64,000 nucleotides of DNA from Steroidobacteraceae bacterium. Lineage in GTDB: Bacteria; Pseudomonadota; Gammaproteobacteria; Steroidobacterales; Steroidobacteraceae. The position numbers and the translations under genes were made by a program. Of the stretch, positions 12,086 through 20,469 are shown piece after piece (the first letter of the stretch is position 1; every line of letters begins with the position of its first letter). Below the pieces are notes generated by a model. That model was not told the DNA's origin, did not search any database, and saw only the letters and a list, made by a program, of their open reading frames with translations. The stretch is taken from assembly GCA_025458865.1 (NCBI GenBank), contig JALORP010000001.1:62001-126000 (forward strand), read 5' to 3'.

Positions 12086-14875
12086 GTGGCGATGACGAGG
12101 CGATGGGTCGGTGTGCTGGCGGGCGCGATGCTCCTGCCGATGGCTTCGCTGCCGTCGACGAGCGCGGCGCGGCCGCCGCTGCCGGGCGACCCGGCGTCCG
12201 CGCGCGTGTCCTGGCCCGATGCGGACTATGATCCGTCGATTCCGACCGCCGAAGCTGTCCTCGGCTTCGAGATCGGCAGCGAGCTCGCGCGTCACGCCGA
12301 GGTGCGGCGCTACTTCGACGCGCTGGCTTCCGCGGCGCCGGACCGCGTGCGTCTGTTCGAAATCGGCGAGAGCTGGCAGGGACGCGGACTGTTCTACGCC
12401 GCGATCGGCAGCCCGGCCAGCATTGCGCGCCTCGAGCAGATCCGCACCGGCATGGCCCGGCTCGCGGACCCGCGCGGCCTCGCGCCCGACGAGCCCGCGC
12501 AGCTCGTGGCAAGCCTGCCCGCGATCGTCTGGCTGGCCTACTCGGTCCATGGCAACGAGCCCGGCACCACCGACGCGGCGCTCAAGACGGCCTACCACCT
12601 GCTGGCGAGCCGGGGCGACGCACGTGTGGCGCGCATGCGCGAGGAAACGCTGGTGCTGATCGCGCCGCTGCAGAACCCCGACGGCCGCGAGCGTTTCATC
12701 GAGAGCACCCGCGCCGGCCGAGGCCTCGAGCCGGACCCGAGCCCGCTCTCGGCCGAGCGCGACGAGCCCTGGCCGGGCGGGCGGTCGAACCACTACCTGT
12801 TCGACATGAACCGCGACTGGTTCACCCAGACCCAGCCTGAGATCCGCGCGCATGCGGCCGCGCTGCTGATGTGGAACCCGGTCGTGGTCGTGGACGTGCA
12901 CGAGATGGGGACGGACCGCACCTACTTCTTCCCGCCCGAGGCGGACCCCTTCAACCCGCACCTGACGGCCGCCCAGCTCGCCAACACCGAGCTGGTCGGC
13001 CGTAACAACGCGGCCTGGTTCGATCGCTTCGGCCTGCGCTACTTCACGCGCGAGGTCTACGACGGCTTCTTCCCGGGCTACGGCAGCGGCTGGCCGAACT
13101 ACCACGGCGCGAGCGCCATGGTGTACGAGCAGGCCTCCTCGCGCGGCCTCGTGGCGCGCCGCTCGGACGGATCGATCCTGCGCTTCGCGGACACGGTGCA
13201 GAGCCAGTTCATTGCCTCCCTCTCGGCCATCGAGGTCGCGGCGAATAACCGCGAGAAGTTCCTCCGCGACTTCGCCGATTACCGCGCGAGCGCGGTGGCC
13301 GAGGGCCGGCGCGAGCCGGTGAAGGCCTACGTCCTGTCGGCGGAGTCCGATGCCGACATGGCGGCCCGGCTCGCCGTGACGCTGGCGCGCAACGGCATCG
13401 AGGTCGGCCGCGCCGACTCGGCCTTCCAGGCCTGCGGTCGCCGCTTCCCGGCGGGCAGCTTCGTCGTTTCCGCGGCGCAGCCGGCAAAGCGCCTGGTGCG
13501 CACGCTGCTCGACGAGAAGACGCCGATGGACCCGGCCTTCCTGAAGAAGCAGGCGGAGCGCGTCTCGCGCGGCCTGCCGGACCAGATCTACGACGTGACG
13601 GCCTGGTCGCTGCCGCTCATGTTCAACGTGCCGGCCTTCAACTGTTCGTCGCTGCCGAACGTCGCGACCGCGCCGGTCGCGCCCGACTGGCAGCCGGCGG
13701 GACGAGTCGTCAATCCTGGCGCGCGCGTGGCCTTCCTCGTGCCCTGGGGAAACACGGCGTCGGCGCGCTTCCTGGCGGCGGCGCTGCGGTCGGGAATCAC
13801 GGTTCATTCGTCGAACAAGCCGTTCACCGCGGGCGGAGCCGCGTACCCGGCCGGCTCGCTGGTGATCCCCGTGGCGGGCACTGCCGGCCTCACCGCGCGG
13901 CTCGAGGCGCTGGCGGCGGAAAGCGGCGCCACGGTGACAGGGGTCGACGACGGCTGGGTCAGCGACGGCCCTGGCTTCGGCTCGCCGAGCGTGCTGTTCA
14001 TGCCTACGCCGCGCGTCGGCTTGCTGTGGGACGAGCCGACCGATCGCGGTTCCGCCGGTAGTGCCCGCTTCGTTCTCGAGCGCCAGTTTGGATATCCGGT
14101 CACGCCCATCAGGACCCGGCGCATCGCGAGTGCTTCGCTGGACGGTTTCGACGTGATCATCGTGCCGGGCGAGGGTGGCAGCTATCGGTCTACGCTCGGC
14201 AAGTCGGGCGCGGAGAACCTGAAGGATTGGGTTTCGCGGGGCGGCGTGCTCGTGGCGCTCGGCAGCGGGACGCGCCTGCTGGCCGACCCCGATGTCGACC
14301 TGCTGCCCATCCGGCTCGAGGACGGTGTGTTCGACCCGGAGGAGGGCGAAGCCGGGGAGAAGGGTGGCAAGGGAAGCGAGCCAGGCAAGGACGACGATGC
14401 GGATGACGGCCGCGTGCCGGGCACGATTCTCGCGACCGAGGCCGACCTCGAGAAGGCCACGCGGCCCGACAAGGAGCCGCCGCGCGTCGTTGCCGGCGTG
14501 CTGGCCGAGGCTCTCATCGCCGATCCGGAACACTGGCTGGCCGCGGGCGTGTCGCCGAAGCTCAATGTGCTGGTGACCGGCAACGACATCTACAGCCCCG
14601 CCCGCCAGAACGCGGCCGACACGGTCGTGCGCTTCGCCGGCCCGGATGCGGTCCTGAAATCCGGGGTGCTTTGGGAGGACAGCGGCAGGCAGCTCGCCTT
14701 CAAGCCCTTCGTGGTGTCACGCAAGCATGGTCGCGGGCTTGCCATCGGCTTCACCGCCGACCCGAATTTCCGCGCACATCTCGCGGGACTCAACCTCGTG
14801 TTCGTGAACGCCATCTTCCGCGGTGCGGCGGCCGTCTACGATGCGAACCGCACGCGCCAGTCGGAAGAGACCTAG
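12086..14875 (+). CDS. Exported M14 family zinc carboxypeptidase-like protein
   Basis: A large (929-residue) periplasmic or secreted metallopeptidase. A signal peptide (ending about STSA) precedes the M14 domain (about 60-380) with zinc ligands in SVHGNEPG and DVHEMG and the substrate-side FDMNRDWF segment. The C-terminal half (about 400-900) is the extra region found in this big M14 group and contains a glutamine-amidotransferase-like stretch (DVIIVPGEGG). It likely trims peptides outside the cytoplasm. A GTG at 12086 has GAGG six bases upstream; the ATG at 12092 is an equal alternative. Confidence 0.88.
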   Translation: MAMTRRWVGVLAGAMLLPMASLPSTSAARPPLPGDPASARVSWPDADYDPSIPTAEAVLGFEIGSELARHAEVRRYFDALASAAPDRVRLFEIGESWQGRGLFYAAIGSPASIARLEQIRTGMARLADPRGLAPDEPAQLVASLPAIVWLAYSVHGNEPGTTDAALKTAYHLLASRGDARVARMREETLVLIAPLQNPDGRERFIESTRAGRGLEPDPSPLSAERDEPWPGGRSNHYLFDMNRDWFTQTQPEIRAHAAALLMWNPVVVVDVHEMGTDRTYFFPPEADPFNPHLTAAQLANTELVGRNNAAWFDRFGLRYFTREVYDGFFPGYGSGWPNYHGASAMVYEQASSRGLVARRSDGSILRFADTVQSQFIASLSAIEVAANNREKFLRDFADYRASAVAEGRREPVKAYVLSAESDADMAARLAVTLARNGIEVGRADSAFQACGRRFPAGSFVVSAAQPAKRLVRTLLDEKTPMDPAFLKKQAERVSRGLPDQIYDVTAWSLPLMFNVPAFNCSSLPNVATAPVAPDWQPAGRVVNPGARVAFLVPWGNTASARFLAAALRSGITVHSSNKPFTAGGAAYPAGSLVIPVAGTAGLTARLEALAAESGATVTGVDDGWVSDGPGFGSPSVLFMPTPRVGLLWDEPTDRGSAGSARFVLERQFGYPVTPIRTRRIASASLDGFDVIIVPGEGGSYRSTLGKSGAENLKDWVSRGGVLVALGSGTRLLADPDVDLLPIRLEDGVFDPEEGEAGEKGGKGSEPGKDDDADDGRVPGTILATEADLEKATRPDKEPPRVVAGVLAEALIADPEHWLAAGVSPKLNVLVTGNDIYSPARQNAADTVVRFAGPDAVLKSGVLWEDSGRQLAFKPFVVSRKHGRGLAIGFTADPNFRAHLAGLNLVFVNAIFRGAAAVYDANRTRQSEET

Positions 14876-14903: not shown

Positions 14904-15596
14904 GTGAGCACTGCCGGCCCGCTCGACCTCGCCGGCCGGCGCGTCCTCGTGACGCAGGGCAGTGAGTTCATGGGCCCCGCGCTTTGCGAGGTTTTCGCCG
15001 AGCTCGGCGCGGCCGTGATTGCGGACGACCGGCCGCTGCTGGACCCGCAGGCGCCCGCGGCGCTCGTGGCCGGCGCCGGGCACGTCGATGTGCTGGTCGC
15101 CAATCTTGCGCTGCCTGCGCCGTCCACGCCGGTGGCCCAGGTCACGGATGCGGAGTGGGCGCAGGTGTTCGAGCATCTCGTGCACCCGCTGCCGCGGCTC
15201 GTGCGCGCGGTGCTGCCGCAGATGACTGCGCGCCGCTCGGGCAGGATCGTCGTCATGGGCAGCGCCTCGGCGCTGCGCGGCATGAAGCGCGCCTCGACCT
15301 ACAGCGCGGCCCGCGGCGCGCAGCTTGCCTATGTGCAGGCGGCAGGCGTCGAGCTGGCTCCGCTCGGCATCCGCCTGAATGCCATCGCGCAGAACTTCGT
15401 GGACAACCCGACCTACTTCCCGCCCGAGGTGCAGGCGAACCAGGCGTTCCAGGAGCGCCTGAGGCGCGAGGTGCCCCTCGGCCGGCTCGTGTCGCCGCGC
15501 GAGGATGCGCTCTTCGCGGCCTACCTGTGCAGCGATGCGGCGGACTGCTTCGTCGGGCAGGTGTTCCCGGTGTGCGGCGGCTGGGCGCCGCGCTGA
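14904..15596 (+). CDS. Halohydrin dehalogenase (SDR-derived, HheC-like)
   Basis: A 230-residue protein of SDR fold lacking the usual features: there is no TGxxxGIG cofactor loop and no YxxxK. Instead it has the two diagnostic motifs of halohydrin dehalogenases: T17-X4-F22-X-G24 (halide pocket, in VTQGSEFMG) and S120-X12-Y133-X3-R137 (in GSAS...STYSAAR). The family turns vicinal haloalcohols into epoxides with release of halide, and opens epoxides with anions such as azide or cyanide, without NAD(P). A further match to HheC is N-x-x-D-N-P-T-Y-F-P-P-E near residue 165. A GTG start gives the family's normal length. The alpha/beta hydrolase at 15639 follows and could act in the same pathway. Confidence 0.85.
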   Translation: MSTAGPLDLAGRRVLVTQGSEFMGPALCEVFAELGAAVIADDRPLLDPQAPAALVAGAGHVDVLVANLALPAPSTPVAQVTDAEWAQVFEHLVHPLPRLVRAVLPQMTARRSGRIVVMGSASALRGMKRASTYSAARGAQLAYVQAAGVELAPLGIRLNAIAQNFVDNPTYFPPEVQANQAFQERLRREVPLGRLVSPREDALFAAYLCSDAADCFVGQVFPVCGGWAPR

Positions 15597-15638
15597 GCCG
15601 GCGTGTTCACGCACGATGGCGCCCTGTGCGGGAGGACG

Positions 15639-16424
15639 ATGGTGAAGAGGCGCTTTTGCGACACGAGCATGGGCCAGGTTCATGTCGTGACGGCGGGCGA
15701 GGCGCCCGGCACGCCGCTGCTGCTGCTGCACCAGACGCCGCGGTCGGTCGATGAGTTCGCCGAGGTCATCCCGCTGCTGGCCCGGTCGCGGCGCATGATC
15801 GCGGTGGACATGCCGGGCTATGGCTGCTCGGACCCGGTGCCGGGGCAGCCGGCCATCGAGGACTACGCCCGCGCCGATCTCGAGGTGCTCGACGCCCTCG
15901 GGGTGGAGCGCGCCATCGTCGTCGGTCACCACACCGGCGCGGTCATCGCGGTGGAGCTGGCCGCGATGGCGCCCACGCGCATCGAGCGCGTGGTCATGTC
16001 CGGGCCGGTGTATATGGATGCCGCGGGCCGGGCCGAGATCGCGCAGTTCTTCAAGCAGTGGCACGTCGCGGCCGACGGCAGCCACTTGCTCGACAAGTGG
16101 ACCAAGATGTACGCCTGGCTGCCGCGGGCCGACCTGGTGCAGCGCTTCGTCGTGGACCTCTTCCGCGCCGGCAAGCTGTCCGAGCAGGGGCACTTCGCGG
16201 TGGCCGGGTACCACATGGAAGATCGCCTGCCGCTCGTGCGCTGCCCGGCGCTACTGCTCTATTCGGAGCGCGACCCGTTCGCCACGCCGGCGCGCGCCGA
16301 GCCGTTGCGGCAGGCTTTCCGGCCGAACCGGGAAGTCACGCTGGACGCGGGCGTGTTCGTCGCCAACGAGGCGCCGGAGGCGTTCGCCCGCGCGGTGCTC
16401 GACTATGTCGAGGGGGAGCCCTGA
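15639..16424 (+). CDS. Alpha/beta-hydrolase-fold protein with altered catalytic triad
   Basis: A 261-residue alpha/beta-hydrolase. The fold markers are clear (LLLLHQTPRS oxyanion region, VDMPGYGCSD, LLYSERDPF acid). The nucleophile elbow at 96-100 reads GHHTG, with His98 where Ser, Asp or Cys is expected, and the C-terminal block reads GVFVANEAPEAF where a catalytic His normally stands. It may therefore work by different chemistry or bind rather than hydrolyse. GGAGG lies just before the ATG at 15639. It follows the halohydrin dehalogenase by 42 bases on the same strand. Confidence 0.8.
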   Translation: MVKRRFCDTSMGQVHVVTAGEAPGTPLLLLHQTPRSVDEFAEVIPLLARSRRMIAVDMPGYGCSDPVPGQPAIEDYARADLEVLDALGVERAIVVGHHTGAVIAVELAAMAPTRIERVVMSGPVYMDAAGRAEIAQFFKQWHVAADGSHLLDKWTKMYAWLPRADLVQRFVVDLFRAGKLSEQGHFAVAGYHMEDRLPLVRCPALLLYSERDPFATPARAEPLRQAFRPNREVTLDAGVFVANEAPEAFARAVLDYVEGEP

Positions 16425-20112: not shown

Positions 20113-20469
20113 ATGACTGACGACTCGACTTTCGCCAGCCTCACCGACGCCCTCCGGGACTTCGCGGCCGAGCGCGACTGGGAGCAGTTCCACACGCCGA
20201 AGAACCTTGCCGCGGCGCTCGCCGTCGAGGCCGGCGAGGTGCTGGAGCATTTCCAGTGGCTGACGCCGGAGCAGAGCCTCGCGCTGCCGGAGGCGGAGCG
20301 CGCGCGCGTGGCGCTCGAGCTGGCCGACGTGCTGCTCTACCTGCTGCGCCTCGCCGACCGCAGCGGCATCGACCTCGAACGCGCGGCCTGGGAGAAGCTC
20401 GCGCTCAACGCCGGGAAGTACCCGGTGGACAAGGCGCGCGGCTCGGCCCGCAAGTACACCGAGCTCTGA
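20113..20469 (+). CDS. MazG-like nucleotide pyrophosphohydrolase
   Basis: A 118-residue all-alpha NTP-PPase. The Mg-binding pattern is present: EAGEVLEHFQW (ExxE type) and ELADVLLYLLRLAD (ExxD type), followed by a basic tail (NAGKYPVDKARGSARKY). These enzymes hydrolyse non-canonical or surplus (d)NTPs to the monophosphate, acting as housecleaning enzymes. Only one base separates it from the next gene, so the two form an operon. Confidence 0.88.
   Translation: MTDDSTFASLTDALRDFAAERDWEQFHTPKNLAAALAVEAGEVLEHFQWLTPEQSLALPEAERARVALELADVLLYLLRLADRSGIDLERAAWEKLALNAGKYPVDKARGSARKYTEL

Follow-up and report, generated by a model that had tools for sequence, protein, structure and literature searches.

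The gene at positions 14904-15596 on the forward strand of the window, by which we mean the whole 64,000-nucleotide stretch of DNA analysed, almost certainly encodes a cofactor-independent halohydrin dehalogenase (HHDH) of subtype D (HheD). The preliminary description of this DNA had proposed a halohydrin dehalogenase here, and the proposal is borne out by the signature motifs, a 72% identity to HheD2, a phylogenetic tree and a predicted structure. Read from a GTG start, the gene gives a protein of 230 amino acids. A second in-frame GTG lies upstream at 14823; because that codon falls inside the preceding gene, and because HheD2 is likewise 230 residues long, we take 14904 as the better start.

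HHDHs carry two published signatures, T-X4-F/Y-X-G and S-X12-Y-X3-R, in contrast to the T-G/A-X3-G/A-X-G and S-X10-14-Y-X3-K of ordinary short-chain dehydrogenases/reductases (SDRs) (PMC4989007, PMC11976700). Both HHDH signatures are present in the translation, at the residues reported earlier, 17-24 and 120-137. Motif 1, T17-Q-G-S-E-F22-M-G24 (positions 14952-14975, forward strand), would form the nucleophile-pocket loop in the place of the glycine-rich NAD(P) loop of SDRs, and motif 2, S120-X12-Y133-X3-R137 (positions 15261-15314, forward strand), would supply the catalytic Ser-Tyr-Arg. When the protein was shuffled 200,000 times, motif 1 arose in 2.8% of the shuffles, motif 2 in 1.3% and the two together in 0.035%. 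We further compared it with 40 SDR domains drawn from a further 30 SDR loci of this genome, some of these domains being doubled where loci overlap. None of the 40 had motif 1 near the N terminus and none had motif 2; Y-X3-K was found in 36 of them and G-X3-G-X-G in 34. A motif test on whole frames had returned two matches, in frames of 815 and 928 amino acids, and both disappeared once the test was restricted to SDR domains. Moreover, in an alignment of 81 D-type sequences, made up of this protein and the best 80 of 472 relatives (69-80% identical), T17, F22, G24, S120, Y133 and R137 are invariant in all 81, with 55 positions invariant overall.

Comparison with solved structures gave HheD2 (PDB 7b73; PMC9629495) as the top match, with 72% identity over 221 amino acids and an E value of 8e-104, followed by HheD8 (8xxb; 62% identity, E 3e-89) and HheB (4zd6; E 3e-54), whereas no ordinary dehydrogenase did better than E 8.5e-22. 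The sequence of 7b73 is that of a gene of the marine gamma proteobacterium HTCC2207, identical at 221 of 221 residues. HheD to HheD6 are given as experimentally verified HHDHs, and new members of the D subtype share 57-95% identity with the verified HheD enzymes (PMC4989007). In a maximum-likelihood tree, the protein fell within the D clade (support 98/93), the D sequences grouped with HheB (100/98), and the HHDHs split from the SDRs of the same genome (97/89); this tree took in only HheB, HheC, D-type sequences and 20 SDR domains of the genome itself, its bootstrap was not yet completely converged, and the branch leading to HheC is long. The identity to HheD2 and the position within the D clade thus place the protein in subtype D. 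It is clearly a new D-type HHDH and, since the subtype has already been described, one of low surprise.

The predicted structure agrees with this placement. An AlphaFold model (pLDDT 85.1, pTM 0.86) fitted HheD2 best, with a Z score of 31.8 and 2.4 A over 220 residues, then HheD8 (Z 30.4) and HheB (Z 30.0), as against Z 26.9 or less for ordinary SDRs; the model has low confidence in the active-site loops (residues 123-128 and 166-170), and the ranking of matches speaks to the fold rather than to pocket geometry. HheC had been suggested as the structural model for this protein, yet HheD2, HheD8 and HheB are the closer templates.

From the 72% identity and the full conservation of the key residues, we infer that the protein has dehalogenase activity. 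Its catalysis and mechanism would follow the scheme established for HheC and relatives (PMC4989007). By analogy with those enzymes, Ser120 would bind and position the substrate hydroxyl, and Tyr133, its pKa lowered by Arg137, would take up the hydroxyl proton. The resulting alkoxide would then displace the vicinal halide and close the epoxide, with the halide leaving into a pocket whose lining would come from T17, F22 and G24 of the motif-1 loop, which stands where SDRs have their NAD(P) loop. In the reverse direction, epoxides could be opened with halide, azide, cyanide or nitrite.

We next turn to where such genes occur. About 85,000 GTDB species genomes were scanned, and these gave the 472 relatives mentioned above. 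The best 80 of these come mostly from Beta- and Gammaproteobacteria, and some carry the labels Deltaproteobacteria, Alphaproteobacteria, Acidobacteria or Phycisphaerales; strains of Noviherbaspirillum and Curvibacter are among the carriers. Closer to the present genome, 4 of 368 further genomes from the same class have such a gene, as does one of 58 close relatives, where it is 77% identical. D-type HHDHs are therefore patchy in distribution, uncommon rather than rare, and well represented, and the earlier characterisation of the family as rare was an overstatement. We also considered a mobile-element origin and rejected it, the single plasmid relative being distant (47% identity) and no phage relative being found.

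To look at genomic context, we compared the 80 D-type loci together with flanks of up to 8 kb in either direction. No conserved neighbourhood or common operon emerged across these loci outside close lineages. Apart from the HHDH gene itself, the sizeable blocks in common were the synteny of the Porticoccaceae/SAR92 lineage, seen in about 10 loci, and, in 4 loci with the window included, a MazG-like gene; a 20-locus cluster was set aside as a mixture of unrelated long frames. With only these two recurring among the 80 loci, neighbourhood conservation was rejected as a clue to the substrate. In the window, the MazG-like nucleotide pyrophosphohydrolase gene lies at 20113-20469 on the forward strand, about 4.5 kb downstream of the HHDH gene, and in three proteobacterial loci (L020, L035, L048) such a gene stands directly upstream of the D-type gene; its presence near D-type genes probably reflects lineage synteny. 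In the Porticoccaceae/SAR92 group (L042, L044, L060, L067, L072-L076, L086), the D-type gene immediately follows a GNAT acetyltransferase-like gene and, in nine loci, immediately precedes a same-strand gene for a protein with repeated DnaT-like segments, both attributions being made by eye. For comparison, HheC and an epoxide hydrolase are encoded in one operon (PMC11976700), and only two of the HHDH genes known in 2016 had such an arrangement (PMC4989007). We searched the genome, which is 87% complete, for a dehalogenation pathway elsewhere and rejected the idea, as it yielded no EHN-type epoxide hydrolase, and nothing in it passed the curated cut-off for a haloacid dehalogenase.

Given that no canonical epoxide-hydrolase partner adjoins the gene and that no operon is common across the subfamily, our guess is a stand-alone role, for example the handling of reactive epoxides or halohydrins. 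An explanation that overlaps with ours, and that we consider unlikely, is that the enzyme has the HHDH fold and naturally catalyses something other than dehalogenation, such as the opening of epoxides with a different anion or a lyase-type reaction of another kind, with dehalogenation as a side activity. The same lack of a canonical epoxide-hydrolase neighbour and of a common operon across the 80 relatives is in keeping with it, as are the wide, patchy distribution of D-type genes and the view of a review that other physiological functions are possible (PMC4989007); nothing positive, however, points to any particular other reaction. For the D-type HHDHs as a group, we can tentatively imagine a natural, non-xenobiotic reaction that needs no partner, either epoxide opening with an endogenous anion or the turnover of natural halohydrins, the dehalogenation of industrial compounds being a side activity, but we would not regard this as the likelier state of affairs. 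Several hundred D-type genes with no conserved partner bear on the question of the natural substrate and do not answer it.

Much less probable is a two-gene pathway in which the D-type dehalogenase works with its immediate neighbour as an epoxide hydrolase. This neighbour, an alpha/beta-hydrolase-fold gene at 15603-16424, lies on the same strand only 6 bases 3' of the HHDH gene, and its product shows remote similarity to epoxide hydrolases and haloalkane dehalogenases. Its nucleophile elbow, however, is G-H-H-T-G: the position normally taken by the nucleophile holds neither Ser nor Cys nor Asp, so that the Asp required by alpha/beta epoxide hydrolases is lacking, and the oxyanion stretch has HQTP in place of HGXP. 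We therefore conclude from the elbow and the missing HGXP stretch that it is not a canonical epoxide hydrolase. Its candidacy was rejected also because, among the other loci of the 80 compared, none has this hydrolase directly beside the HHDH gene. Relatives of the hydrolase occur at E <= 1e-20 in 94 of 246 genomes of the same order, and the G-H-H-T-G elbow is invariant in 19 same-order relatives. Of 11 aligned relatives, most apparently have G-G-T-x-D in place of the catalytic His that is usual near the C terminus. The members of this family may be something other than classical hydrolases, or may use an unusual nucleophile.

The preliminary description had also anticipated that automated annotation would call the D-type dehalogenase an SDR oxidoreductase, and this is indeed what generic resources suggest. 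In Pfam, only adh_short_C2 and adh_short matched, starting at residue 50. The adh_short_C2 alignment covers residues 50-227 and begins only at position 61 of the 236-position profile, which indicates that the cofactor part has been lost, in line with the earlier claim of a lost cofactor loop. NCBIfam gave matches to 183 models; among the matches listed (25 of 183), all were of SDR type and far below their cut-offs. The plasmid relative is annotated as 'SDR family oxidoreductase', and even HheD2 bears the PDB molecule name 'Short-chain dehydrogenase/reductase SDR'. That the protein is in fact an ordinary NAD(P)-dependent SDR oxidoreductase is nevertheless scarcely credible, for although it has the fold of the SDRs and matches only their generic models, the scores of the NCBIfam matches listed are far too low, the T-G-X3-G-X-G loop is replaced by T-Q-G-S-E-F-M-G and the catalytic Lys of Y-X3-K by Arg, and both tree and identity put it among characterised HHDHs. 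The gene is one confident addition to the list of D-type HHDHs, for some of which a higher thermostability than that of HheC has been reported (PMC4989007), and a further case of HHDHs sitting unnamed among SDRs.

Among known systems, HheC of Agrobacterium radiobacter AD1 (PDB 1pwx) has the family motifs and mechanism in common with our protein and differs in its weak sequence similarity (E 7e-17) and in its C-terminal extension, which reaches into the neighbouring active site (PMC4989007) and is absent here; the epoxide hydrolase of its operon likewise has no canonical counterpart adjoining 14904-15596. HheB of Corynebacterium sp. N-1074 (PDB 4zd6) represents a sister subtype with about 45% identity and the same motif spacing, but it belongs to another subtype and has Tyr for Phe in motif 1. 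HheD8 (PDB 8xxb) is of subtype D, as is our protein, yet it is more distant than HheD2, and its crystal holds an engineered form, a triple mutant with chloride according to the entry title. The closest known system is HheD2 of HTCC2207 (PDB 7b73), which matches our protein in subtype, in both motifs and in length and is its best structural match; although the host lineages differ, the two enzymes are separated only by ordinary ortholog-level divergence.
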